Origin: Zychaea mexicana
Lineage: Eukaryota > Mucoromycota > Mucoromycetes > Mucorales > Lichtheimiaceae
DNA: 64,000 bases
Reading direction: 5' to 3'
Assembly (NCBI RefSeq): GCF_025766255.1
Contig: NW_026516723.1
Span: 62,001-126,000, forward strand
Below the pieces are notes generated by a model. It saw nothing but the letters and a program-made list of their open reading frames with translations. It was not told where the DNA came from and searched no databases. Of the stretch, positions 1,821 to 62,812 are shown piece after piece; position 1 is the first letter of the stretch; each line of letters starts with the position of its first letter. The position numbers and the translations under genes were made by a program.

Positions 1821-4800
1821 ATGCCCTCAACAAAAGAAAAACTCGACTGTCTGCTGTCGTTTATCCAGCAGATTGAACTCCAGAGCTGCGGAAACAATGA
1901 CGACGACAACGACAACGACAACGACTCTCCGACACCTGATTTTAGTGGCGAGGATGATCCGGAATGGTGCGGTATCATTGACTCGTTGCAAAGAATAGCT
2001 CTAAACCAATCAAAATGTCGCTCAGACCTGACACGCACCCAAATCATGCTCCAACAAAGCCGAGTCGTAACCGCTGCCAATTTCACACCGGCGCTGCCTG
2101 CCAGGGCCTTGTATGCGAATCCGACGCCGACGCCGACGACGCCCATGCAGCAAACCATCCTTGATGAAGGCCAACATCTGCGTATGCTTCATGAATCTGC
2201 CTTTGCTGCTGCTGCTATCTCGCCGCCTATTTCGGAAGACATGTCCAGCATGTTTGCTAGCAAGGTATTAATACTGGTGGATGGGCGTGTCAAAAAGTTG
2301 AGTTTGAATATTTTTTCTTGTGGTTTGACATGCTCTCTTTCTAGTGTACCACGCCTTCAAGTAGCACAAAAGATCTGGTGCCTCGTCAAGAGCATGCAAC
2401 AACACTGTGCACCCACTGTGTGGAAGAAATTGGCCGCATCAGCGATGCCATTTGCCACGCAGACCTGAATCAACGTGTCGCTTGGTGCCCGTCGTGCCAT
2501 GCCTCCGAACCAGTCCAAAAGTTCAAATCCATGGTTGAGCATATGCGAACTGTCCATCTCTCCATGTCCGCTCTCCTGTCGGGCTTCACGCAGCAGCAGC
2601 AGCAGCAACAGCAACAGCAACATGATCGACCGATTGCAGATTCTGACGAGATCAACGACGTTGATGCGTGGGAACATCTTGTCAATAAGATTAGCAACGT
2701 TTCCCGTTTGTATTCTCAGCAGTTGACCGAAGCTACAAGAGTAATACGCGCTGTCACTGCTGGCGACATGACCCAGCGAATGCAGCTCGAGGTGCTGACC
2801 GATGACATCCCAGTACCGCCAAGTCTCATACAGCTGCGACTTGCTTCTGACGAAATGGGTAAATTTTTATAAAGTGCGTGTATGTTTGTTTCTTTGTTTG
2901 TGTATGCTGATTATGTTAATTACATATTTAGTGACCCGTTTGGACGGATATGTGTCGGAAACATCACGTGTCATTTACCACTTTAGCACGCAAGGACGCA
3001 TTGGCGCCGAATCTCTTGCAAAGAACATTGGCGACGTTGGCGTATGGGAAGAACTGGCCACCGGACTGAACACAATGACTCACAGACTTGCCACTGACGT
3101 GCAAAACATTGTTGAAGTTTGCAGAGCAGTTGCACGTGGCGATCTCACAACAAAGATTACAGTTCAGGTAGTAACACGACCTCACTTGAAATAGCAGCGC
3201 TATTCAACGGTTCTAATCGCCTCAATATATTCAAAACAATTACAGGCCAATGGAGAACTTATTGAGGCCAAAGATACGATCAACTCCATGGTGGATCAGG
3301 TATTAAGCAAAGCTGTTATGCCTTGTAAATTGCTTTGATATCGTATTTCATTCGCCAACTTACAAAAATCATCATTAGCTGAATGCTTTTGCCACCGAGG
3401 TCAAGCGAGTTACCTTACAAGTCGGCGTCGAAGGCTATCTTGGAGGCCAGGCCGTCGTTGAGGGCGCGCAAGGCACCTGGAAAGAACTCACCGAGAATGT
3501 CAATCTGATGGCAAGCAACTTAACGCTACAAGTTCGTGACATTGCCACTGTCTGTAAAGCTGTTGCTCGCGGCGATCTTTCTCACACGGTAAGTTATCCT
3601 AAATCATACCCCCCCCCTGTTTCTAACTGCTGGATACCTTTTTTGTTGCTATCAACAAACAATGACTTTGAATGATTGTTTATAAAAAAAAAGATCACCG
3701 TTGATGTCCATGGGGAGCTTCTCGATCTCAAATGCACAATCAACACGATGGTCGAGCAGCTGCGTCTGTTTTCCGCCGAGCTCAGTCGAGTCACTTTCCA
3801 AGTAGGGTCCGAAGGTCGCCTCGATGCTCAAGCCATTTTGCCATATGACCTCGACGGAATATGGCGTGATCTCACCCTCAATCTCAACACCATGAGCATG
3901 AATCTGACTGCACAAATGCGGGATATATCCAAAGTTTTCAAAGCAGTGGCGCGTGGCGATCTCACACAAAAGGTTACTGTTGAATCCTATGGAGAAATAC
4001 ATGACCTCAAGGTAGCAATAATAATGAAACAACTAAATTATCACCGTTATTTGATTGCTAAACGAGCAATGTTTTTTTTCTCTCTCTCTCCCCTTGTAAT
4101 TAGCAAACAATCAACTTTATGATTGATCAACTCCGTATTTTTGCTACCGAAGTGACTCGCGTGGCACTCGAAGTTGGCACGCAAGGAAAACTGGGCGGGC
4201 AGGCCGTTGTCAAAAACGCTGACGGTATCTGGAAAGACTTGACAGACAAGGTCAACGTGATGGCGGCCAACTTAACTTCCCAGGTCCGTTCGATCGCTGC
4301 AGTGACTGTAGCTATAGCCGACGGCGACTTTAGCAAAAAAATCACAGTCGACGTGAGCGGCGAGATCTTGGACCTCAAGGTGGCGATCAATGACATGGTC
4401 GACCAACTACGCTCCTTTGTTTCTGAAGTCACGCGCGTCGCTCGAGAAGTCGGTACTGATGGGAAACTGGGCGGCCAGGCGACGGTCGAAAACACCAGGG
4501 GCACATGGAAGGATCTTGTCGAGCGGGTCAATATCATGGCTGCCAATTTGACGACCCAAGTACGATCCATCGCTGAAGTCACAACTGCTGTAGCCAATGG
4601 CGACTTGAGCAAGCAAATTGATGTGCCTGTTCATGGTGAGATTCTCGATCTCAAAATAACCGTGAATCGTATGGTTGAAAAGCTGCGTATGTTTGCTACC
4701 GAGGTCACCCGTGTGGCCAAAGAAGTCGGCACAGAAGGCAACTTGGGCGGACAAGCCGTAGTGCAAGGAATCGCAGGCACATGGAAGGACCTGACGGATA

Positions 4801-7720
4801 GCGTGAACGCAATGGCTGCTAACATTACTGCTCAAGTGCGTGATATTGCTATGGTGTCCAAGGCCGTTGCCAAGGGCGACCTGAGCCAGACGATCACTGT
4901 CGATGTCAAGGGTGAGATCCTCGATCTGAAAATTACCATCAACACCATGGTCCAGCAGCTATCGATATTCGCCAATGAAGTATCCCGTGTTGCCCTTGAA
5001 GTCGGTACAGAAGGCAAGCTTGGCGGTCAGGCGGTCGTACAGGGCGTTGACGGCACATGGAAGGACCTGACAAACAATGTCAATATGATGGCCGGCAATC
5101 TTACGACCCAAGTACGATCGATCGCTGCTGTAACTACAGCCGTAGCACGCGGTGATTTATCACGCAAAATTGATGTCGATGTAAATGGTGAAATTCTCGA
5201 GCTCAAGGTAATCTATTTTCGTTTTTTTTTATTCGATGTTTCGTTACTAAAAGATGCATCATCCTAAAATCTTTATAATAATAGAACACCGTCAATTCAA
5301 TGGTGGATCAGCTGCGCACATTTGCGGCCGAAGTTACTCGTGTTGCCCGTGAGGTCGGAACCGAAGGCAAACTCGGCGGGCAAGCTGTTGTTAAAGGCGT
5401 TGACGGCACATGGAAAGATCTGACTGACAATGTCAACTTGATGGCCAGCAATCTTACTGACCAAGTCCGAGACATTGCTGACGTATGTAAAGCAGTTGTA
5501 TGCGGCGAGCTATCCAAAAAGGTGACGGTGTGCGTGTATGGCGAGATTCTTGATTTGAAAATCACAATCAACACCATGGTCGACCAACTACGCACGTTTG
5601 CTGTTGAAGTCACTCGTGTTGCCAAGGAAGTCGGCACCGAAGGCAAACTAGGCGCCAAGGCTCAAGTAGAAGACGTATCGGGTGTGTGGCAGCACATCAT
5701 CTCTGACGTTAATGTGATGGCTACAAACTTGACAACCCAAGTACGAGCCTTTGCCCAGATCACATCGGCCGCTACCCGCAACGATTTCAGTCAAGTCATC
5801 ACGGTCGAAGCGTCTGGCGAGCTGGATTCGCTTAAAACCAAAATCAATCAGATGGTCTTTTCTTTACGAGACGCCATTCAGAAGAATGCCCAAGCGCGCG
5901 AAGCGGCGGAATTGGCGAATAAAAGCAAGAGCGAGTTCTTGGCCAACATGAGCCACGAAATCCGAACGCCTATGAACGGTATTGTCGGCATGACCACGCT
6001 CACACTAGAAACCGACTTGACTCGACCTCAGCGCGAAAATCTGCTGATCGTCAAATCACTTGCCCTCAACTTACTGACGATTATTGATGATATTCTCGAC
6101 ATCTCTAAAATCGAAGCCGGTCGGCTCAACATTGAGCAGATACCGTTCTCACTCCGGAACACAGCACTCAGTGTGTTCAAGACTATGGCTTACAAAGGAG
6201 GCAGCAAGCTGAACCTCATCTATGACATGGAGAGCAATATACCGGATTGGCTGATGGGAGATCCACTGCGGCTCAAGCAAATCATGACCAACCTTATCGG
6301 CAATGCCATCAAATTTACATCCGAAGGAATGGTCAAGCTATCTGCTACACTCGTTGAACATCCTAGATACAACGATCAACGAGAGATTCAATTCTGTGTG
6401 AGCGATACTGGGATTGGGATCTCACAAGACAAGCTAAACGAGATTTTCGAAACGTTCTGTCAAGTCGATGGCAGTACTACGTAAGTTGATCGAGGTTTTT
6501 TTATCCACAAGAAGCACGAAGAGAACATCACTTACTCACTGGTTGCTTAATTAGAAGAAAGTATGGCGGCACCGGTCTTGGCTTATCGATAAGCAAGCGT
6601 CTCATTGAGCTAATGGGCGGCCGGCTTTGGGTGGATTCTGCACCAGGCAAAGGATCCAATTTCTACTTTGCATTCTCTGTCAGCCTTGGTGACCCAAATA
6701 ACAGCTGGATGGTACCCAAACCATCTGTACCGCTCACCCAACGCTTTTTATGCATCAACGATGAAGCAGACGACAATTATGACGTTGGTCAGGCGTACCG
6801 CGAACAAGTTGGCATGCAATGCAAACGACTCAATATCGATGTAGCCTATGCACAGCTTCTTGCAAATGTCGAGCAGCTCAACATCATGGATGACGACAAC
6901 ACGAACGTATCGGTGACAACACTCAACTTTGATGCCATGATCGCCAGCAGTATCAATCAGGTTCGCCGTCTACGTGATGTCCCTCATATTCGCCATACGC
7001 CGGTCATGATTGTCCAACCCGATTTCCGCTGTCTTGACGTGAACGAAAGCATCACATTGGGTATTGCCAGCTATCTCAACAACATGAACGAATTTGCCAG
7101 CTTTGCCACGGCTGTCCACGTTGCGTTGGACAACAACATGATGTCGATGCGTACCAATATCGAAGCCAAACAGGCCCTTCGTGTTTTACTCGTTGAGGAT
7201 AACTTTGTAAACCAGCAATTGGCGGTCAAGATGCTTGAAAAAATCGGCCACAAAATTACAGTTGCGCAGAACGGAAAGGAAGCCGTCAATATATTTGAAC
7301 AGCTACCTTTTGATATCATTCTCATGGATATCCAGGTAGATAAAAAGAAGAGTAGCTTAGTAGATAAGCATTGATCTAACATACGCTCGTCAATTGAATC
7401 AGATGCCGGTGATGGGTGGATTTGAAGCGACGGAATTGATACGCAAGAAAGAGCAAGAACTCAAAGTCAACTCTCGAGTACCCATCATTGCACTCACTGC
7501 ACATGCTATGATTGGCGACCGCGAAAAATGCCTTGCGCATGATATGGTAACATTGTGATTTTTGAGCAACTACTAGAGTTACCTCGCCAGTATTATTGAA
7601 AAAGCTAATCACTTTTCTATGTTTCCTCGAAAGGATGAATACATCAGCAAGCCTCTTCGCTTGGCTGAACTTACTGCTGTCATCAACAAATTTGCTCCTC
7701 GTTCTCCTTCTTGCACTTGA
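1821..7720 (+). CDS. nik1: Group III hybrid histidine kinase with a long HAMP array (Nik1/OS-1 type)
   Basis: This is a cytosolic hybrid histidine kinase of the Nik1/OS-1 class. In other fungi these act upstream of the HOG MAP kinase and are the target of phenylpyrrole and dicarboximide fungicides. Eleven exons (1821-2264, 2345-2858, 2932-3167, 3246-3299, 3379-3588, 3694-4011, 4104-5207, 5285-6480, 6555-7335, 7403-7546, 7634-7720) sum to 5088 nt, or 1695 residues, in one frame. The N-terminal 270 residues include acidic DN repeats, a CxxC...CxxC segment and a poly-Gln run. Nine clear HAMP-type repeats of about 92 residues follow, plus a weaker first one. Next come HisKA ([11 protein letters not shown], His near 1184), the ATPase motifs [15 protein letters not shown] and GTGLGL, and a receiver domain with the phospho-acceptor in LMDIQMP (Asp near 1617) and ISKPL. 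No membrane segment is seen. Confidence 0.95.
2591..2621 (+). repeat. CAG/CAA repeat coding for poly-Gln in the histidine kinase
   Basis: A run of CAG and CAA codons gives about ten glutamines in the N-terminal region of the kinase. It lies just before the degenerate first HAMP repeat and is likely variable in length between strains. Confidence 0.8.
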
Positions 7721-13815: not shown

Positions 13816-16116
13816 ATGTCTTCAATAACGCAAAGTCTTGCAGCTGCAACAGCTAAAGCGAGAATCAAAGCTGTTACTAACCATTTATCCCCACAATATA
13901 ATAACACTTGCTTAAAAAAATGTAAAAAGAGGATATAATCATGTATAGTTTATGTCCCGCCCGTTTAAATAAGTATTTTTGTGCGTTTTCTAGATCAAAT
14001 TGACCGTCGACCCGAGCAAGTGCCATATCATACACCAATGGACCCCATTCGTTTTCTATTGAGAAGTGCCATGGTGTACCGCAACAAAACTGCCGTCATT
14101 CACGGCGATCAAGCCTACGACTATGAAACCTTGGCGGACCGTGTTTTGCAACTTGCGAATGTCTTGATCCAAGATTTTCATGTTCGACCAGGCGATCGTG
14201 TGGCGGTCTTGTGTCAAAACACACCTGCTTATCTCGAAGCAACGTTTGCAGTTCCTGCTGCAGGATGTATACTAGTGCCACTCAACACACGGTTGGCTCC
14301 ACCAGAGAATGAGTACTTGATCAAACACTGTGGAGCAACAGTGTTAATCATACAGGAACAGCATCTGTCTCGTATTACTCCTGGTGTTAAAGAAACGATA
14401 AAGATGATCCGTGTGGCGGATCAGCAGAATCCGGGCCAACCTTCTTGCCAATACGAGCTATTATTGCAGGAGAAGAAGAAGAAAGAAGAAGCTAGTGGTA
14501 CTATGCTGATGAAATGGAACGAATTACCTTTAACGACAGACGAGAATGCCCTTATCACAATCAACTATACATCAGGCTCAGCTGGCAAACCAAAGGGCGT
14601 CATGCAGTCGTATAGGAGCTGTTACTTGATGGCAATGAACATGTGTGTGCATGCACGTCTAACGCTGGACACGAAATATCTATGGACCGCTCCAATGTTT
14701 CATTGCAATGGCTGGAACTTTACATGGGCTGTTGTGGCAGTAGGAGGTTGGTTCAGAATGCCGTGCACGTCAGCAGCAATAAGCTAACCCCCACTGTTAC
14801 GGTTAAGCTCAATATACTGATGCTGACTCCCTTCTTCACTGATGCTGTACAACAAAACAGGTACCCATGTTATGCTCGATAAAATTGATTATCCTCGCAT
14901 ATGGAAATTGCTACAAGAGCATCGCGTAACACATTATGGCGCTGCACCCACCGTGCAGAACGAGTTAGCCCATCATAAAGATGCTGTTTGTCTTGACCAT
15001 CCCGTTTCCTGCATAATTGGGGGTTCGCCACTTTCAAGCAAGGTGATCGGCAAACTCAACACACTCAACATTTATCCAGTGCACGCATATGGCTTGGTAG
15101 GTTGTCAAACAATCGATGAAAAAAAGATGCGACCAGACTTCTCAGCTGACAAGTGTAACTTTTCTTTGAACCTCAAAGACAGAGACATCTGGACCAAGTG
15201 TGCATACGTATGACAGAGCGGCTCTGTCTCAGTATCCAGAGGAGCAACATGCAGAGCTAATATCTCGTCAAGGCTTCAGTATTATTTCGCAAGATGAAAC
15301 GCGGGTACTCGATCCAAAAACTGGCAAAGATGTAGTAGCAAATGGAAAACAAGTCGGGGAGATATGTTCGTCTGGTAACACGACAATGTTGGGTTACTAT
15401 AATGACGTAAAGGCGACGAAAAAGGCGTTTCAAGGAGGTGTTTTCTGGTCAGGCGATTTGGGTGTGCGACATCCTGATGGGGCGGTTGAAGTGATCGATC
15501 GAGCCAAGGACGTTGTTGTGTCCGGAGGAGAGAATATCAGCTCTATTGAGGTAGAAAATACAATCATGATGCTGGAAGTAGTATCTGATTGGTAAGTAAA
15601 AACATAACAATGATGAATGTGATTATTCTGATCATGATGATGACGGATGTTGCTTGACGGTGGTTATTGATGATGCTAAAACTTTTGATTACTAGTGCCA
15701 TTGTTGGTGGTCCAGATGAAATTTGGGGTGAACGCCCTTTCGCTTATATTGTCGTCTGGGAAGGCAAAGCAATCACGGCCGAAGCAGTTATTTTCCACTG
15801 TCGTAGAAACTTGGCAGGATACAAATGCCCGTCGAAAATTATCTTTGTAGACAAGCTTCCAAAAACCGAGTAAGAATTTTGCCTTCTTCGCAACGTGCTG
15901 CCATGATAAAAGTTTCTCTAACTGGACAGTAATAATTATATTAACCCTGATTATTATATGATAGGACCGGTAAGAATTTTGCAGCAGCAGCTATGTTTTA
16001 TGTTGACACGGATCAGTCCATATTGTTTACTGACTATGAATGATTTTATAGGTAAAACTAAAAAGTATTTGCTGCGGGAACAGCTCTGGAAGTCCCACAC
16101 AAAGCGCGTCAACTAA
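13816..16116 (+). CDS. AMP-forming acyl-CoA synthetase (ANL superfamily)
   Basis: This enzyme is predicted to activate a carboxylic acid, probably medium- or long-chain, with ATP and CoA through an acyl-adenylate. Exons 13816-13921, 13994-14746, 14861-15096, 15179-15591, 15696-15869, 15965-15969 and 16052-16116 sum to 1752 nt, 583 residues. Core motifs are the P-loop-like YTSGSAGKPKGV, MFHCNGW, YGL/TETSGP across a splice junction, FWSGDLGVRHPDG, the hinge IDRAKDVVVSGGENIS, and the C-terminal catalytic lysine motif KTETGKTKKYLLRE. That last motif only appears if a 5-nt exon (15965-15969) is included. The start at 13816 gives a short leader with ALA-rich sequence and joins in frame to the conserved RPEQVPYHT. 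No peroxisomal PTS1 is seen. The exact substrate is unknown. Confidence 0.85.
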
Positions 16117-24400: not shown

Positions 24401-24550
24401 CGAACAGGCTCTGCTTTGGTTTTTCTATCTCTCCGGAAAAAAAGGAGCGTCATTTTCTTACAAGTCACACGCACTTTCATATGTATCTAAAGAAAATGTG
24501 CTAGGCTGCATAAGCGTGCCGGCAGCTTGTATATTGGTTACTGTGTTATA
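21451..24550. other. Three kilobases without a recognisable gene, left of the composite element
   Basis: The first 400 bases are the pyrimidine-rich 3' flank of the GATA factor gene. The rest is AT-rich with only short frames. The longest, 23736-24014 (+), would give 92 residues with a Lys/Gln-rich helix but no domain I know and no supporting context. I see no tRNA-like cloverleaf. Confidence 0.35.
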
Positions 24551-24566
24551 CAGTGCTTCCAACAAG

Positions 24567-24720
24567 CAATGTCGCAGCCAGCCAAAAACGAAGTCGTTGG
24601 CCAATCAAAATCGATGTCGTTGGTTGGTCAAAATCAATTTCGCACTTTTGGAAATGGAAGTCGTATTTTTAGAAACCATGTCGTTTGCATTTGAAAATGA
24701 TGTCGTGTTACGATGATTTC
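24567..24720 (+). repeat. Subterminal iteron array, seven 20-23-bp units, left arm
   Basis: Seven units begin at about 24567, 24590, 24613, 24636, 24657, 24677 and 24699. Each starts with a form of (G/C)A(A/T)GTCG; the fourth is degenerate (AATTTCG). A-rich filler follows in most units, for example CAAAATC. The spacing of roughly two helical turns suggests transposase-binding sites on one DNA face. The same array occurs inverted in the right arm, about 30592-30745. This role is inferred. Confidence 0.7.
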
Positions 24721-24803
24721 TTGGCACTCGAAAAAATATAAAAATGAGGTCTTTCTTCTCCTGAGTCTGTTTTTTTCTTTTCTTCAATTGCTTAAATTTT
24801 AAC

Positions 24804-26087
24804 ATGAGTACAATATTTTTATTTGAAGATGGGCATGGAAATGTCGTTGATGAGAATGGAGGTCCTGAACCCATGGAATATATTGTTGAGCAGAATGAGT
24901 TCATTGTAGAGCCGATTGCGACTCACAGTGAGTACTTGAAAAATATGCGCTCTAGTGAATCTTCATCTGTTTGTCCAATGCTGACAGAAAAGCCAAAAGA
25001 TGAAGACATTCGTATGAAAGAGGTAAACACAAAGCGCGATTATGTGCGCTATTCCCTCCAAGATAAGGTTCGCTTTTTCGAACTGAAGATTGAAAAGTGT
25101 ATGAGCGCATCAGCTGCAGCGAAGCAGTTGGGTATTCACATTCGGACTGCTCAGAGATGGGTTAAACAGTACAATATGTGTCCTGATAGCATTTTTGAGG
25201 TTTGTAAGCAAATTGGTCGTAAATGTATCTTGAGCAAAGAGCATAAAACAGCTGTTATCAATTTTATTGATAGTAACCCTTCTGCTTCTGTTGTTGAAGT
25301 AACCGAGCATTTGTTGAATCGGTTCGGTGATCTGAAAGTTTCACGTAGCACTGTTTACAATTTCATGAAAAGTGAATGCAACCTTTCGTTGAAGAAGGCT
25401 GACTTTCATTCTGTTGAAAGGAACAGTCCAGCCAAGGTTGAAGAGAGACATGATTGGGTTCGTAAGTGGGAAAATACTGATATAAATTTTTTGACGAATT
25501 GCGTGTTTCTTGACGAGTCAGCTTTCGATATCAATATGAAACGCTCTAGGGCTTGGTCCAAAAAAGGTACGCGTGCCATTGTTACCCGACCAGTAACGAG
25601 AGCAAACACGACGTCGATATTGGGTGCCATCTCTGCTGAAGGTTTGATTACAATTGGTGTCAAAAAACCGAGACCAGCGAAGAAGAGAAAGGCTGAAGGA
25701 TACATAAGCTCAGGTACCGTAACGGGTCATTATATCAGTTTCTTAAAAATGACTCTTGATGAGATAGACAAGCATCCTCACATGAAAGGCTACTATGTAG
25801 TCATGGATAATGCACCAATCCACACACATGAAAACATGAAAAAATATATTGAGTATCGAGGATACAAATGCGTGTATCTTCCTACTTACTCCCCTGAGCT
25901 TAACCCAATAGAACAATTCTGGGCAGTGGCAAAGAGTAAGGTTAAGCGTCATAGGTTTTTGCAGGAAGACACTTTATCAAAAAGAATCACGGAAGCTTGC
26001 AATAGTGTGGAGAAAAGTCATTTCCGAGGTTTCGTTTCGCATTCTTACAACTGCTTGGATAAATGTCGAAACAAAGTGCCCATATAA
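24804..26087 (+). CDS. Tc1/mariner (DD34E) transposase, left copy
   Basis: An intact, intron-less gene of 427 residues with an N-terminal acidic leader of about 70 residues, then a helix-turn-helix region (ASAAAKQLGIHIRTAQRWVKQ) and a second winged-helix-like part (SASVVEVTEHLL, VSRSTVYNFMK). The DDE_3-type catalytic core follows. Its first Asp is in VFLDESAFDINM, the second in VVMDNAPIH and the Glu in YSPELNPIEQFW, with 34 residues between the last two. All three acidic residues are present and there is no internal stop, so it may be active. It cuts and pastes DNA at TA sites if it behaves like its family. It differs from the right copy by Met instead of Ile after THEN. Confidence 0.93.
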   Translation: MSTIFLFEDGHGNVVDENGGPEPMEYIVEQNEFIVEPIATHSEYLKNMRSSESSSVCPMLTEKPKDEDIRMKEVNTKRDYVRYSLQDKVRFFELKIEKCMSASAAAKQLGIHIRTAQRWVKQYNMCPDSIFEVCKQIGRKCILSKEHKTAVINFIDSNPSASVVEVTEHLLNRFGDLKVSRSTVYNFMKSECNLSLKKADFHSVERNSPAKVEERHDWVRKWENTDINFLTNCVFLDESAFDINMKRSRAWSKKGTRAIVTRPVTRANTTSILGAISAEGLITIGVKKPRPAKKRKAEGYISSGTVTGHYISFLKMTLDEIDKHPHMKGYYVVMDNAPIHTHENMKKYIEYRGYKCVYLPTYSPELNPIEQFWAVAKSKVKRHRFLQEDTLSKRITEACNSVEKSHFRGFVSHSYNCLDKCRNKVPI

Positions 26088-26219
26088 TGGCAACCAACGA
26101 CTTCATCAAAAGGCAACAATACAGAAGTAAGAACCACGTAAGTATCAATCAGGTAAGTAATTAGCAATTTTATTTCACTTTTTTAAGAGTATTACATCGA
26201 CTGTCAGTCATTTTATGAG

Positions 26220-26899
26220 CGACCATGAAAGTAAAAAGCAAACTGATTTGCACAACGCCAGCAACACGAAAAAAAAACATGAAAACCAGGCAAGTTGTGT
26301 CGTTACAGCTGACAGAAAGTGTTGCAGGCTAAGTTATTGGGATTAGTTCTGGAAATATAAAGGACAAAAGTGCAAATCTATTGCGTTCTAATTTTATTGA
26401 TACATCTGCGCCAAATAGATTTTGAGACTAGACCAAAAAGCAAGTATGTACAATGTGACGAAAGGCTTGGGTCTACCATCTTTGCAATGGTTCTAATTGT
26501 CCAATTCTCCATAAAAAAAAAGACACTGTTAGTGTGACGTATCCATAAACATTACGAAAAAGGAGACTGCTTAACTATTGCTCCCAGTTTTGTAGTGAAA
26601 CCGATGTAAGTCCGTTCAACGACGATGCATACACCAGTAACATAGACGTTCATCTCCAGTCTTACAAAAGCAAGACCTTCACTGACTACTAACCTCACTG
26701 CAACTCCACAATTGTAGTCCGAATCAGTCTCTTACCATCATTACCTTTCAACCGGAAGATTTAAGCCAAAGGAATAAAGAAAATCAAAACATCCCAGTAA
26801 TCATAAGAATTTTTCACAAAAATCGCCGATTCAAAGTTCATGTGTGACTTCTTGTTTTCTTCTTTTGCAGTGTAGATTACTGTATGTTTCTTCCTTGAA
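26220..26899. other. Interior of the composite element, 5' of the cargo gene
   Basis: AT-rich non-coding DNA between the inner end of the left arm and the nuclease-like gene. It presumably contains that gene's promoter; a run of A (26511-26521) and a TTTTGCAG are seen. No further frame is supported. Confidence 0.35.
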
Positions 26900-28736
26900 A
26901 TGCCACCCAAAAAAAAGTCGTCGGCATCTACACTCTCCAGAAAGAAGCCAAAGATTCAAGTACCAGACGATGCACAATGGTGCTTGGACAACCTACGCCA
27001 TCTTACTTTTAGAAAGTTTATTGAAAAGTTCCAATGCTTGGACAAGTGTAGTTCGCAACAACGATACCTCAATATTCTCTCAAAGTATATCAGTAACACT
27101 CAACATTACGAACGCGTTAGAATGGAGTACAAGACTTGGACTGGTTCTGCTGATTATCAACGATTTTGGAACGAGCAAGAGGAATTGGATATCATATTGC
27201 GAACAGATGGAGCTTGTACAAAGTTTATTGGCTCTGTTACTGAACACAGGTTGCGAAGTCTGAATGCTAAGGCCAATACTGTTGTCCGAGAAACACTCGA
27301 TGGTGTTGACGATCAAGAAACTACCGACGACACTGCTGATATTCAAGAAAGCACCAAAGACACTACTGAATACCAAGAAACAGCCTGTACTATTGACACT
27401 CAAGAAAATATCAATGCGAATGATGCTCAAGAAACAACCGACGACAACTCTTTCAGCGACGATGATAGAAGTTGTCAGCTTTACCCGACCTCGTCCATCA
27501 CCAGCAACAATGATACCAATGTTAATTCAGACAATATCAATGTTAACCCCTGGATCTTCCGCGGGAAAAACATTACTCTCATGTTCGAGAATTACAAGTC
27601 AGTTGTCCATGATTTGATCAAAAAACACACAAAACTTCCGCTTGAACCCTATATCAATGAATTGGCAGCTTTATCGCATATTTTGATCTTAAACAAGCAT
27701 CAGCACAGTTCTATTGCCACGAAGGTATTTTCCAGTGAATTATTGGAAGAATTAGCAGCGTCTTTGTCTTCCGAATCGATGAACTACAATCTCGATTTCA
27801 ATGATCAGCATTATCTGACGCTCACAAAAACCATCACGAATCTCAGCATGTCAATTAAAACAAGAGAGCAAGCCATTGTTGAACTTACAGTCATGTCTGC
27901 TGATATGGATTATGGTCCTAGACGTCTTGTTCGTGGAATCTCCAATTTGTAAGCAATATTTATGTGCTTAGTTTTTTTTTTATTCATAATGCTTTATTAA
28001 TCTCTTTTTTTTATGATCAGAATTCAAAAGTTACCAAACACACCATTGAAAGACAACAATGACATCAGTGAAAGCGAACTATGGAGTACTTACTTTGACC
28101 CTCTACTTTCATGCTTAATCTGTGATCCGGATAGGCTTGTACATTTACGTTGGACGAATTCCATTCCAATCGAAGGTGGAAAATTGCGACCAGATGCAAT
28201 CATCGCCAAAAAACAACAACTCGAGTATGATCACAGTGTTGGGCACGGTGAAGTGAAAGTGAATCAAGGCAACACAAGCAAATACCTTCTCTGCATGGAC
28301 ACCCTTCGATTGGCAATTTTCAACAAAAATGCAATCGACGTGAACAAATTGGATGGATCGCTTGCTTTTCAAATTCATGGTATGTCAAAAAATCAAATCA
28401 CCCACATAGGATATTAATATATTTTTATCTCTTCACATGGTAGGGTTTAACATCACGTTTTTTGTCTCTCGCTTGGTTGCCAATGGGATTTACACTTTTT
28501 TTGAAATTGCACATTTTCGTTTTCCTCAATCCTTGGATGATCTTCCATCTTTCATATCCTTGAAGAACATGAAATTGTTGCTTGGTATCAACGAGGCATT
28601 TTGGCGCCTGTGCAGAAAATCCGACGATTCTGCCACCATAGCTGGTAGATACAAAGTAACATTAGCAAGCTTGGAAACACTGATTGACGGAAGCAAAGAT
28701 CGAGTAAGAAGCTGTTCTGTGCGATATGGACAGTAA
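26900..28736 (+). CDS. Cargo gene: protein with a possible PD-(D/E)XK nuclease motif
   Basis: This gene sits between the two transposase arms. Exons 26900-27948, 28021-28379 and 28444-28736 join in frame to 1701 nt, 566 residues. The N-terminus is very basic (MPPKKKSSASTLSRKKPKIQ), as for a nuclear protein, and is followed by an aromatic and charged helical part. Next is an acidic, Thr-rich stretch of imperfect QE(T/S)T-DDT repeats (about 130-180), then a helical C-terminal half. There, RPDAII followed 17 residues after the Asp by GEVKV gives the D...ExK spacing of PD-(D/E)XK nucleases. Nearby conserved-looking segments are LRWTNSIP, LLCMDTLRLAIF and GIYTFFEIAHFRFP. The nuclease idea is motif-based inference. 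I recognise no named family. Confidence 0.6.
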
Positions 28737-29093
28737 AGGAACACGTTTGCTTGATGAATTGCGATTTTCCCCTTTCGATTCGTTTTTTTTTCTTTTTCTT
28801 GTGATTCGTTTTTTTTTTACATGATTCCTTTTTTACCCAATACATCTTATGGATACACTTAACCAATCTCGTCAGTATGAAAATGCTATGTAAAGCAGTA
28901 AATTATACTTGATTTCGTCAAAAAAAAAGTGAACTGAAACCTTCTGTTCATTCATTTTCCCATTATTTCAACGATGCAATTTCAATAGCTGCACTTGTCA
29001 CAAAAACAGTTGCAAAACAATCTAATTGATAGGAAAATCACTACCAAGTTATTGTTTTTATCTATTACTGCATATTGATTTGAAGATTGCTTT
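28737..29093. other. Interior of the composite element, 3' of the cargo gene
   Basis: T-rich 3' flank of the cargo gene (28775-28835) followed by AT-rich DNA up to the inner end of the right arm. No gene. Confidence 0.4.
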
Positions 29094-30761
29094 CTCATAA
29101 AATGACTGACAGTCGATGTAATACTCTTTAAAAAGTGAAATAAAATTGCTAATTACTTACCTGATTGATACTTACGTGGTTCTTACTTCTGATTGTTGCC
29201 TTTTGATGAAGTCGTTGGTTGCCATTATATGGGCACTTTGTTTCGACATTTATCCAAGCAGTTGTAAGAATGCGAAACGAAACCTCGGAAATGACTTTTC
29301 TCCACACTATTGCAAGCTTCCGTGATTCTTTTTGATAAAGTGTCTTCCTGCAAAAACCTATGACGCTTAACCTTACTCTTTGCCACTGCCCAGAATTGTT
29401 CTATTGGGTTAAGCTCAGGGGAGTAAGTAGGAAGATACACGCATTTGTATCCTCGATACTCAATATATTTTTTTATGTTTTCATGTGTGTGGATTGGTGC
29501 ATTATCCATGACTACATAGTAGCCTTTCATGTGAGGATGCTTGTCTATCTCATCAAGAGTCATTTTTAAGAAACTGATATAATGACCCGTTACGGTACCT
29601 GAGCTTATGTATCCTTCAGCCTTTCTCTTCTTCGCTGGTCTCGGTTTTTTGACACCAATTGTAATCAAACCTTCAGCAGAGATGGCACCCAATATCGACG
29701 TCGTGTTTGCTCTCGTTACTGGTCGGGTAACAATGGCACGCGTACCTTTTTTGGACCAAGCCCTAGAGCGTTTCATATTGATATCGAAAGCTGACTCGTC
29801 AAGAAACACGCAATTCGTCAAAAAATTTATATCAGTATTTTCCCACTTACGAACCCAATCATGTCTCTCTTCAACCTTGGCTGGACTGTTCCTTTCAACA
29901 GAATGAAAGTCAGCCTTCTTCAACGAAAGGTTGCATTCACTTTTCATGAAATTGTAAACAGTGCTACGTGAAACTTTCAGATCACCGAACCGATTCAACA
30001 AATGCTCGGTTACTTCAACAACAGAAGCAGAAGGGTTACTATCAATAAAATTGATAACAGCTGTTTTATGCTCTTTGCTCAAGATACATTTACGACCAAT
30101 TTGCTTACAAACCTCAAAAATGCTATCAGGACACATATTGTACTGTTTAACCCATCTCTGAGCAGTCCGAATGTGAATACCCAACTGCTTCGCTGCAGCT
30201 GATGCGCTCATACACTTTTCAATCTTCAGTTCGAAAAAGCGAACCTTATCTTGGAGGGAATAGCGCACATAATCGCGCTTTGTGTTTACCTCTTTCATAC
30301 GAATGTCTTCATCTTTTGGCTTTTCTGTCAGCATTGGACAAACAGATGAAGATTCACTAGAGCGCATATTTTTCAAGTACTCACTGTGAGTCGCAATCGG
30401 CTCTACAATGAACTCATTCTGCTCAACAATATATTCCATGGGTTCAGGACCTCCATTCTCATCAACGACATTTCCATGCCCATCTTCAAATAAAAATATT
30501 GTACTCATGTTAAAATTTAAGCAATTGAAGAAAAGAAAAAAACAGACTCAGGAGAAGAAAGACCTCATTTTTATATTTTTTCGAGTGCCAAGAAATCATC
30601 GTAACACGACATCATTTTCAAATGCAAACGACATGGTTTCTAAAAATACGACTTCCATTTCCAAAAGTGCGAAATTGATTTTGACCAACCAACGACATCG
30701 ATTTTGATTGGCCAACGACTTCGTTTTTGGCTGGCTGCGACATTGCTTGTTGGAAGCACTG
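29094..30761 (-). repeat. Right arm of the composite element (1668 bp)
   Basis: Inverted copy of the left arm. The outer end GGAAGCACTG at 30752-30761 is followed by TA. The arm contains the mirrored iteron array (about 30592-30745) and the second transposase gene. Confidence 0.9.
29225..30508 (-). CDS. Tc1/mariner (DD34E) transposase, right copy
   Basis: This is a full-length 427-residue twin of the left transposase on the opposite strand. It has the same helix-turn-helix region and the same catalytic residues (FLDES, VMDNAPIH, NPIEQFW). The only amino-acid difference I found is Ile for Met in the segment after THEN, a single ATG/ATA change. Such identity points to very recent duplication or ongoing gene conversion between the arms. 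Confidence 0.93.
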   Translation of the reverse strand: MSTIFLFEDGHGNVVDENGGPEPMEYIVEQNEFIVEPIATHSEYLKNMRSSESSSVCPMLTEKPKDEDIRMKEVNTKRDYVRYSLQDKVRFFELKIEKCMSASAAAKQLGIHIRTAQRWVKQYNMCPDSIFEVCKQIGRKCILSKEHKTAVINFIDSNPSASVVEVTEHLLNRFGDLKVSRSTVYNFMKSECNLSLKKADFHSVERNSPAKVEERHDWVRKWENTDINFLTNCVFLDESAFDINMKRSRAWSKKGTRAIVTRPVTRANTTSILGAISAEGLITIGVKKPRPAKKRKAEGYISSGTVTGHYISFLKMTLDEIDKHPHMKGYYVVMDNAPIHTHENIKKYIEYRGYKCVYLPTYSPELNPIEQFWAVAKSKVKRHRFLQEDTLSKRITEACNSVEKSHFRGFVSHSYNCLDKCRNKVPI

Positions 30762-31898
30762 TACTGACAACGATATGCTACAAGGCTGAGTCTGCCCAAT
30801 TTCAGGTACGCAGCAAGTCGGAGCACTCCGAGACGCGGGTTCGAGTTTCAGGTGGCTTATATTCTCAAAGAACCATGGGTGAAGTGAATAAAATAAAATC
30901 TTTTACAAAGTCATGTGCTATTGCAGTCCGTCAGTTACTGCGAATGGAGCAACTTTTTTTTTTATCATTTTCTTTTATTTTTATAATAAATGGGGGATTT
31001 TCCAGTTGGTAAATAATCAGATCAGTGAAAACCACGCTGTTAAGGATGGTTGAAGGCCTCAGCGTGTCTCGTCAGACCTCCCATAAGCACACGGCAGAGC
31101 CATGAACCAAAGTGGAAGCTTGATCGTTCAACAGGCCAGGAAAGATCATCATCTTTTCCAAATTCTGGAAGATTCGTCTAAGGAAAAAAAAAACAGCAGC
31201 AGCTTTGAGGTGAGCACTCTTATTTATACCTTTTCGACGGCACAAGTCACAGCCAGAAGGACCTTAAATAAAAACTGTCACGCTATGCCTCATAAGCGGG
31301 GAAAGTGAAACGCTCATCCATCATAGTCCAGTTGTTGGAAAGAAAACGTATGGTGCCAAGTACAATTACCATCGTAAACTGTAACTGTTGAGAGTCTAAC
31401 TTATATTTCGAGTCCTTTTGTATATCTCCTGAGGACGTGTCGCTCGCATAGCTGATTATTATCACGGCATTCTGTTCTGGCGTCTCACCAACGGCTGAAT
31501 TGCTGTGGCCGCGCCTGACACGGAGATTGCCAGCGTAGTTTGTGTCACCATGCTTCGCTTACTAACGACAGACACTGCAAACTCGAGTGGCGGTTGTTTG
31601 CTTAAATGAGTAGGAAAGCAGAATCAGAACTACATTTTCATTCACGGCTTTTGTATAGAAGTCCAAAGGAAAAGAGTACCAGATTCTTTCATACGTTGTT
31701 AAAGATATTGGGCGGAAGCGAGAAAGAGAGTATAAGAGCTTTGTGAAGAAGGTATGGACAAAGAAAACAAAGAAGTGATATATAAAAGAAGAGAAAACTA
31801 GAGTTATCTATCGCGGAACGAGGAAATGCAAGTATGTGTGTGAAGAGAAGGATATGGCATGTGCGTGTGACTGATGTTGTGTATGTGGGTTTGTTGGT
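30762..31898. other. Intergenic, right flank of the composite element
   Basis: It begins with the TA bordering the element and runs to the 3' end of the Yme1 gene. There are only short frames, and no gene or RNA gene is recognised. The first 100 bases do not resemble the left flank, so the flanks are not part of the duplication. Confidence 0.4.
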
Positions 31899-34811
<2,913 letters not shown>

Positions 34812-60849: not shown

Positions 60850-62812
60850 ATGGGCCAATTTGACGAATCCAATAACAGCAGCTGTAGCAGCCACTGCTGC
60901 TGTCAGTACCTTCCTGTACTATTGGATTCGCTCGTTTAAGAATGATCCATTAGACGATCTACCGAGTTCCAAAGGCCGTGTTCCTTTCTTCAGTAAGTCT
61001 TTACTGCCTACGTGGGTACTTTCTAACAATATATATACTGATTTAATTATTGTTTCTCATCCACTATCCTCCTACATGCACTTGTGAAAAATAGGGCACC
61101 TTTTGTGTACTGACAGGCTTCCTGGAAACAAGTTTCACGAGTGACGTACAGAATGTGGGTCAGTACTCCGGAATGACATAGGTGTTCAACCGTGGATTCT
61201 GGTCAGCGATCCAGATATTCTTCACTATTTATTTGTGACCAATGGTGCTGTTTCCTCCAATCGTACTTTCCAGTTGTTCAGCTCACATTACTATTCCCTG
61301 GGAAAGAGGTAAGATAGGAAGTGGTTATGTGAACTGCGGGCTTCTTGTAAGTCTTGAAATGGGCGTTTTTATCAGAGGCATTTTGTTTGCAGCTGCACTT
61401 TCCGTGTTGTCGCAAAAATCAGTAGCCAAGTTTAACCCAATCCATCAACAAGAGGCCAACATTCTGGTCGACGATCTCGTTATAGATACTAGCAACGCCA
61501 AAGGATAAGGCATAAACCCACTTTCTCTGCTTCAACGAACTTCACTATGTTTTACAAATTAGCTTTGGTTTACGCGTTTCAGAACAAGACCCGCTATTTC
61601 TTGACAATTGTTAAACTTGTTGAAGAAGGCATGAGGCACTTTCAAACCTATTTGCAGGTTTTTTCGCAAGTGCAAGTGCAAGAAATTTTTTTTGACCAAT
61701 AAAACTTCATGAAAACATCTGCAACTTTGAGTGTGCCGCAAGTTATATTCTAGTCTTTCAATGCAAGGTTTTCCAGTGTAACTTTTAAATAGATCCAGTC
61801 CAAGACTTATACTAGCTGGTCTCGTCTAACTGCTCCTTGGCGCTTTCTTCTTTCTTCATCGACTCACGTTAACTGCTTAGGGAATTCGTACAACGTACTT
61901 GTGTCACGTGTTGCGATTTTTGGATAGGAATGTTGCCGACCTGCACTTGCGAAAGTTATCTGTACCTGTTCCCAGGTGCAGATGCAGGTTCTTTGTACAG
62001 GAATATTCTGACCAATCACATTACTTTTTTATTTGCACTTGCACTTGCGAAATAACCTGCAAATAGGTTTGAAAGTACCTATGGTATTGAGCAGTGTTCA
62101 AGAATTGGGGGCATTATTCTTTACAATTCTCAAGTTTGTCGATGCCTTGTTCGGCCGAGCCAATTCGTTCAAGAAATATATTGAAGGGAAACGTGAACCT
62201 TTATTTAAAAGTTTGTTGCAACAAGCGAATGATGGTGATCAGGAGTGTGTATTCAAACATTTACACGAGCGAAAGCAAGAGCTGGGACTCGATGATGCTG
62301 ATCTAATAGTCGCTGCAGGTAAAACGATAATGACTTTACGCTTCGTATTCTTTCTTGCCTATACTTGTAAGTTACAAAAAAGCAGAATATTTCAATTGCT
62401 ATATAAACGGACGAGTGTTTCCCAAAGGTGTATCCAGATCCAGAAAGCTTTATCCCTGAAAGATTCCAAACCATCGAGTCCGCTACTCATGGTAAACTCG
62501 AAGATCGTGACCCTTTTCATTTCGGTTGGGGAAGAAGAGTATGTCCCGGCATCCATTTGGTACGCTATATCTACTACTACACTTGGGAACCGATAATGTT
62601 CGTTGCCTCTACTGATAGTTTATTAACGTGATGATGCATTACCTATAGGCCGAGGTACAATTGCTTAATGTTTAAACCCGGGTACTTGCTCAATGCACCT
62701 TATTACCACCTGAGGACGGATCACTCCAGATCTCGATGATTGCCGAGATGGTGGCATTGCCGTTTTGCCTCCTCCATACAAGGCACGCTTCGTTCGCCGC
62801 TGCAGCCAATAA
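60850..62812 (+). pseudogene. Decayed tandem cytochrome P450 copy
   Basis: A second P450 that follows the first and shares its pattern. Pieces in order are NPITAAVAATAAVSTFLYYWIRSFKNDPLDDLPSSKGRVPFF, HLLCTDRLPGNKFHE followed by a stop, PWILVSDPDILHYLFVTNGAVSSNR, a degenerate C-helix region, FVDALFGRANSFKKYIEGKREPLF, LGLDDADLIVAAG, then directly PDPESFIPERF, the haem loop FGWGRRVCPG and PPPYKARFVRR. The only ATG near the start (60850) is out of frame by one base. The region between the VAAG exon and PDPESF, which should hold the I-helix GGTDTT and the ExxR motif, is missing. An insertion at 61635-62079 splits it further. It cannot make an active enzyme. Confidence 0.85.
61635..62079 (+). mobile_element. 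MITE-like element with 47-bp terminal inverted repeats
   Basis: The left end (61635-61681) and the reverse complement of the right end (62033-62079) agree at 45 of 47 positions by eye, starting GGCACTTTCAAACC versus GGTACTTTCAAACC. The interior of about 350 bp has no reading frame. It contains further relatives of the repeat core (for example ACCTGCACTTGCGAAAGTTA near 61940 and GACCAAT boxes near both ends). It interrupts the P450 remnant between the GAAGGCATGA and TATGGTATTG flanks. No clear target-site duplication was found, so the superfamily is open. Confidence 0.75.

Follow-up and report, generated by a model that had tools for sequence, protein, structure and literature searches.

TA target sites and CAGTG ends are traits of the Tc1/mariner family of DNA transposons. 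In bacteria, composite transposons such as Tn5 and Tn10 have two inverted, transposase-bearing arms that flank other genes; their outer ends are used, and each arm is an insertion sequence with two ends. (The giant transposons of fungi known as Starships are mobilised by a tyrosine recombinase.) Here we describe an element of ~6.2 kb from the fungus Zychaea mexicana that shares features with the first two of these systems. It lies at 24549..30763 of a stretch of 64,000 nucleotides, which we call the window (positions 62,001 to 126,000 of NW_026516723.1, here contig C263, in a eukaryotic assembly of 50.3 Mb in 305 contigs). Very probably, it is a DNA transposon from the IS630-Tc1-mariner group with two genes, one being the transposase gene over which its terminal inverted repeats (TIRs) have lengthened and the other lying in the unique centre.

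As described in one source, the usual Tc1/mariner transposon has one open reading frame (ORF) in a single copy, and Minos has long TIRs (PMC7325037). Like Sleeping Beauty, Tc1 and Minos, the window element has a DD34E triad and both helix-turn-helix and DDE_3 domains, but it has a transposase gene in each inverted arm and a second gene between them. With two transposase copies plus this second gene, the whole element departs from the single-gene form of ~1.3-2 kb that is usual, if not strict, for IS630-Tc1-mariner. The ciliate elements Tec and TBE also have DD34E transposases and more than one ORF, and the TIRs of Tec are ~700 bp long. They differ in having three ORFs and other hosts, and their description in the available part of PMC7325037, which was our only basis for comparison, mentions no transposase inside the TIRs.

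The nearest published eukaryotic parallel that we found is KolobokP, a group of composite-like DNA transposons from animal hosts, as presented in the text that describes it (Kojima and Bao 2022, PMC9587614). These too are eukaryotic DDE transposons with composite-looking long terminal repeats and a second protein, which in KolobokP is a nuclease. According to the same text, KolobokP belongs to the Kolobok superfamily; its repeats are direct, ~450 or 660 bp long, with short TIRs of their own, and seemingly excisable; and its transposase and its nuclease, which is of the His-Me finger type, are both internal (PMC9587614). In the window element, by contrast, the arms are inverted, and a motif in the centre protein points to PD-(D/E)XK rather than to a His-Me finger.

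The likeness to Tn5 and Tn10 lies in the inverted, transposase-bearing arms around another gene and in the apparent behavior of arms and centre as a unit. Unlike the arms of Tn5 and Tn10, those of the window element have no inner terminus, TA or motif array. Unlike Starships, the window element has a DDE transposase, TIRs and TA borders. Tc1/Mariner was reported to be the largest group of transposable elements in the Mucorales genomes of one study (PMC7928374). In the open-licence literature, we found no description of a Tc1/mariner element with the transposase in both inverted arms; an earlier description is possible.

Anatomy of the element and its second copy

When the window was aligned to itself, the left arm ran from its outer terminus to its inner boundary at 24549..26219 (forward strand; 1671 bp including the TA border), and the inverted right arm lay at 29094..30763 (reverse strand; 1670 bp including the TA border). 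The arms are 99.82% identical over 1671 columns with one gap, and a chance origin of this identity is out of the question. (A second alignment gave the same arms as two ungapped pieces.) They differ at just three positions in the four-arm comparison described below. Each arm contains an uninterrupted ORF for an intact transposase of 427 amino acids (24804..26087, forward; 29225..30508, reverse), and the two proteins differ at one residue. The first-pass annotation, which was made from the window's letters, had reported inverted, near-identical arms of about 1668 bp, each with an intact DD34E transposase. This is borne out, with the size corrected.

The catalytic spacing between DNAPIH and NPIE is 34 residues in both arms (DD34E). 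The left-arm protein matches the Pfam families DDE_3 (E = 1.1e-28, 100.4 bits; cut-off 28.6) and HTH_23 (28.1 bits; cut-off 24.6), and its curated family score for IS630 is 162.6 bits (cut-off 100). Among proteins of solved structure, its closest sequence match is Sleeping Beauty SB100X (E = 3.6e-6). These matches place the predicted protein in the IS630-Tc1-mariner superfamily. It is 91% identical, over 80% of its length, to a protein from Rhizopus microsporus. Outside the fungi, a search for the transposase arms found no viral contig and two streptococcal genome contigs, with relatives at 25-28% only.

Both outer ends read TA followed by CAGTGCTTCC, with the TA (a target duplication) at 24549..24550 on the left and at 30762..30763 on the right. 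The outer 40 bases are identical at the two ends (TACAGTGCTTCC..., with the TA border as the start). The terminus is followed by a subterminal region with a 23-bp tandem repeat and WWGTCG motifs, and the terminal and subterminal region on the left (24551..24710, forward) is mirrored on the right (30602..30761, reverse). On the left, WWGTCG occurs at 24569, 24591, 24614, 24658, 24678 and 24700, mostly in ~22-bp steps with one site skipped; counted from the end, the positions are 21, 43, 66, 110, 130 and 152 on both sides. This array is likely a set of transposase-binding sites. At the inner boundaries (TATGAG/CGACCA and TGCTTT/CTCATA), there is neither a bordering TA nor a terminus. Each arm of the window element has a single isolated WWGTCG at its inner end; the other seven elements checked have none, and none of the eight has an array there. 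Thus, the outer and inner ends are as the first-pass annotation had described them.

The centre region (26220..29093) contains one gene on the forward strand. Its three exons (26900..27948, 28021..28379 and 28444..28736) are predicted from GT-AG splice sites, with homologous proteins in Mucorales supporting exon 1 and a motif, RPDAII...GEVK, in exon 2. The predicted protein has 566 amino acids, as in the first-pass annotation.

A second copy of the whole element lies at C52:13658-23777, with arms and centre ~98% identical to those in the window. (By DNA search, the centre occurs in this genome only in the window and on C52, where it is split by an insertion.) The two centres are 98.3% identical over 2233 bp and 97.6% identical over 660 alignment columns. 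The inner junction sequences are identical in both copies, so the two-arm state predates the split between them. We compared the flanks, using 1500 bp on each side in the window and 658 and 1223 bp on C52, and found nothing in common beyond chance matches of up to 14 bases. A second copy with the same inner junctions and unrelated flanks indicates that the arms and centre move together as a unit, as had been proposed from the window alone. The C52 copy looks decayed, because its centre gene has a premature stop as well as 7 synonymous and 16 other codon changes. (The insertion, at C52:17560-21470, is ~3.9 kb long and holds most of a 585-amino-acid open frame with no Pfam match; 9 bp of the centre are repeated at its junction.)

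Related elements and the likeness of their arms

A protein search for the transposase across the genome gave 105 rows, which merged to 91 loci. (98 of 507 candidates were scored, so this is a lower bound.) Neighbouring loci less than 25 kb apart form 28 pairs, and 25 of these face inward, with 3 outward and 0 in tandem (p = 1.3e-12). Inward pairs include 50 of the 91 loci, and the DNA was read for 18 of the 25. Scans with TIR patterns from three termini gave 35, 37 and 13 matches, with 0 in each reversed control. There are 27 cases of neighbouring TIR ends within 25 kb, and 25 of these are in +/- order. Of the resulting 25 TIR-bounded elements, 15 have a transposase arm at both ends, 8 have a single such arm and 2 have none. 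Among 13 listed elements, 12 have TA at both borders; for the remaining one, on C232, the listed position was off by one base, and two other scans show TA at the start of both its ends. The WWGTCG array varies from seven sites to one or none among 14 scanned elements (C59 has seven sites on the left and six on the right, in ~22-bp steps), and the motif density in the interiors of these elements is 0 to 0.54 per 260 bp.

The one-arm elements are diverse. C305 shows two arms by self-alignment and is therefore a disrupted two-arm element. C223:927132-928667 is a plain 1.5-kb monomer (from positions only). C179:291719-295953 and C297:121251-125490, both 4.2 kb, are 97-98% alike; each has a single transposase and a single match to the centre gene (for C179 and for the right end of C297, we know only the positions). 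Another one-arm family includes C59, C116 and C247. The C59 and C116 copies are 6.9 kb long and have, opposite the arm, a TIR of 195 bp, and the C247 copy, which has a nested insertion, was read only into part of this TIR. The first-pass annotation had named many single, TA-flanked copies as a finding that would speak against a joint unit. These were not seen, as 1 of the 25 TIR-bounded elements is a plain monomer; yet many transposase loci do lie outside inward pairs (see below).

Several other loci are unusual. At C13:429557-446244, the inverted arms are 8.0 kb long and 99.9% identical, with ~0.7 kb between them, so that arm growth reaches almost to the middle. C212:116135-127726 and C212:127725-146504 are abutting family elements, the one with one arm and the next with two, that apparently have one TA in common. 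At C147:21200-29480, the inverted identity runs into the flanks, giving 2855-bp arms on a 34-kb contig; this is possibly a larger palindrome or an assembly fold-back, and we retained it in the counts of inward pairs and TIR-bounded elements. The two TIR-bounded elements with no transposase arm detected, C212:216053-217501 (1.4 kb) and C273:87799-95799 (8.0 kb), are possible non-autonomous derivatives.

We then compared the arms within and between elements. In the four-arm test of the window element and its C52 copy, 16 substitutions and 2 gap columns group the arms by element, and 0 group them by position. A second pair of elements, C68:457883-463052 (C68b) and C52:58933-63970 (C52c), gave 36 sites by element versus 0. 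(Near the arm ends, two more single columns are ambiguous: in these, one arm of each element groups together, and the remaining two arms differ.) The centres of C68b and C52c are 96.1% identical over 1319 bp, and their flanks have no match at E 0.01. In a tree of the arms (45 of the 50 loci; 5 under 700 bp were dropped), mates are sisters in 16 of the 17 elements represented by both arms. (Two contig ends, C26 and C228, also pair in this tree and may be halves of one element.) Since arms match their own mate rather than the arms of the other copy, these comparisons argue that arms are homogenised within elements. Given the grouping by element and the common inner junctions of the window and C52 copies, gene conversion between the arms is the simplest reading.

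The transposase is also under purifying selection. The ratio of nonsynonymous to synonymous substitution rates (dN/dS) is 0.07-0.15 between intact, divergent transposases wherever dS was computable (pairs with C68a were not), showing that selection keeps the protein. For the very close pair C59/C116, which has few changes, dN/dS is 0.78.

The centre gene and alternative passengers

The pattern PD...(D/E)xK is the catalytic signature of the PD-(D/E)XK nuclease superfamily, and at the level of this motif the centre gene has it. At a threshold of E 0.001, a search found 46 relatives of the centre protein (49 with a profile query). All of the named ones are from genera that we take to belong to the order Mucorales, and three are from unnamed or metagenome sources. 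All 38 aligned relatives have the dipeptide PD, and 34 of them have the longer PD...GE[AV]K. Within this genome, the longer pattern is present in 5 of 9 scanned elements and absent from C287, C297, C157 and C303. The centre protein matches no Pfam or NCBIfam family at its cut-off, including no His-Me finger or other nuclease family, and it has no sequence match in PDB and no Foldseek match at E 0.001. Members of the PD-(D/E)XK superfamily have an alpha-beta core; two AlphaFold2 models of the centre protein have a mean predicted local distance difference test (pLDDT) score of 59 and 63, with values below 50 in the motif region. Because there is no family, structure match or firm model, we describe the protein as PD-(D/E)XK-like at the motif level only. 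The earlier term "nuclease-like" thus has the support of the motif only.

A search of the genome with P0004, a relative of the centre protein, gave 84 rows at 58 loci. Inward transposase pairs take up 0.45% of the genome and contain eight of the 58 loci (p = 2.7e-10), and 13 more loci are within 8 kb of an unpaired transposase. The centre gene appears from these positions to be a frequent, not exclusive, passenger of this transposase. Some loci show another arrangement: at C168:51862-63456, transposase loci face outward with centre-gene matches adjoining, and on C35, C8 and C267 the centre-gene matches form mirror-image pairs in which this transposase is absent. These may be further families with the centre gene itself in the arms.

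Other elements have an unrelated gene, which we call gene B, in the centre (C223a, C223b, C68b, C52c, C1, C212 and C291, as well as C94 by another exon). Gene B is not a distant form of the centre gene, as profile comparison gave a probability below 1%, and the same holds for the centre ORFs of C102 and C59. No fetched element has both the centre gene and gene B within its bounds. (Two weak matches to the centre gene, in C52c and C68a, arose because the query proteins were fusions; they fall either beyond the bounds of the element or within a nested DDE_1 gene.) Related arms surround different second genes in C263 versus C291 and in C305 versus C94, which points to exchange of the centre; alternatively, the difference may reflect loss from an ancestor with both genes. 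We did not count the centres of C232, C68a, C212 and C262 as cargo, since their genes belong to nested transposons (Helitron-like, Tc5/DDE_1, and DDE_Tnp_4 with a chromodomain).

The centre protein is 89% identical to a protein from Rhizopus arrhizus and 98% identical, over 70% of its length, to a protein from Apophysomyces sp.; its paralogues within this genome are ~25-48% alike. Transfer of the centre gene between genera is possible, as is contamination in the case of the short Apophysomyces contig.

Origin of the arms and biological meaning

The first-pass annotation had called the element composite. In the classical sense, two independent Tc1-like monomers would have inserted in opposite orientations around a host gene, their inner ends would have decayed, and the block would have moved together. 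We consider this unlikely. It would fit the vestigial inverted TIR segment at the inner arm end of C59 and C247 (scores of 62 and 67, versus shuffle maxima of 28 and 31), the existence of one 1.5-kb monomer, and the different second genes between related arms. But among the 16 left arms tested, the vestige is present in only C59 and C247, which belong to one family. In the window element, the best inner match scores 23 versus a shuffle maximum of 30, and 44 of 300 shuffles score as high or higher. From these tests, we rejected the idea that the arms are decayed monomers with inner TIRs. Furthermore, the distance of the inner boundary beyond the gene match varies between 114 and 6700 bp. (It is 114-571 bp, and 6.7 kb in C13, so there is no fixed monomer end.) Variable boundaries suit lengthening of the TIRs by gap-repair copying better than they suit a fusion of two monomers. 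The absence of an inner array in all eight elements checked, the recurring centre partner, and the presence of the same centre gene in one-arm, two-gene elements (C179 and C297) also disagree with "composite" in the bacterial sense.

Two other explanations do not invoke movement as a unit. The arms could be two unrelated insertions, or two copies that an assembly error joined as inverted arms; with three differences between the window arms, these arms alone could reflect a duplicated stretch of the assembly, and C147 is suspect because its flanks are palindromic too. Yet other elements have the same layout with clearly differing arms (94.5% identity in C94, 96.3% in C52c, 96.6% in C232 and 97.4% in C52a), 25 of 28 neighbouring pairs face inward, and the whole unit is also present at a second, unrelated site. 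Independent insertions, which the first-pass annotation had found hard to reconcile with the ends of the arms, or an assembly error are very unlikely given the genome-wide pattern of inward pairs and TIRs, and we give this account almost no credence. Palindromes made by the host through segmental inverted duplication would also produce near-identical arms. This is only marginally more credible, and still highly improbable, since TA-bordered outer termini occur at different sites with unrelated flanks and since, in the window element, the array of terminal motifs is confined to the outer ends.

A two-gene transposon with TIRs lengthened over the transposase remains our preferred explanation. 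If so, then transposase from either arm would bind the two outer ends, with their CAGTG terminus and six WWGTCG sites, pair them, excise the whole unit and insert it at a TA, in a cut-and-paste manner. The arms would not leave alone but would stay with the centre, because their inner ends lack a terminus and an array of sites. Gene conversion would keep the arms alike, and the transposase copy in one arm could thereby replace a damaged one in the other. The TIRs may have lengthened by copying during gap repair until they enclosed the transposase gene. As for the centre protein, our guess is that it is an auxiliary nuclease. A bolder and improbable version is that the doubled transposase is a self-repair design, in which the centre protein is a nuclease whose cuts set off the conversion and may also restore the element at sites that it has left or at allelic ones. 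If true, a DNA transposon would have two linked means of persistence.

Several observations weigh against the preferred explanation. All of the genome evidence is from one assembly, and for 7 of the 25 inward pairs we know only the positions (C52:80419, C57, C280, C67, C121, C265 and C24). Outside inward pairs there are 41 of the 91 transposase loci, mostly short, decayed, at contig ends or unread, and many copies have stops or frame breaks, which is to say that they are decayed. The array is weak in some relatives, with one site per end in C262 and C232 and none in C102. In the arm tree, the mates in C287 are not sisters, and a C287 arm groups with the near-identical C157. As many as 37 of the 58 centre-gene loci are near no transposase from the protein search. 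(One of the 37, on C79, has a transposase arm ~3 kb away in another scan.) We found no empty site in the genome; both flanks of the window element are single copy. Finally, the inner arm end in the C59/C116/C247 family keeps a 51-bp TIR vestige (C59 and C247 were tested), which is expected if an old monomer fused to cargo and leaves room for an early composite or fusion step.

The rest of the window includes host genes. The open frames at 4104-7371 encode HAMP domains in series, along with HisKA, HATPase_c and a response regulator, and make up a hybrid histidine kinase gene. Pfam matches also identify a sodium/hydrogen exchanger (548-1507), an AMP-binding enzyme (13969-14784), an AAA and M41 protease protein (32436-33122) and a cytochrome P450 (58919-59560).

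Eukaryotic Tc1/mariner transposons are mostly known in a minimal form with one gene. In this one genome, about two dozen loci have a doubled, inward-facing transposase along with a recurring and apparently exchangeable second gene. They offer a natural system for asking two questions: whether gene conversion between duplicated transposase genes prolongs the life of an element, and how ends of the Tc1 type manage to enclose 5-19 kb, passengers included. Close relatives in other genera of Mucorales make transfer between fungi testable.

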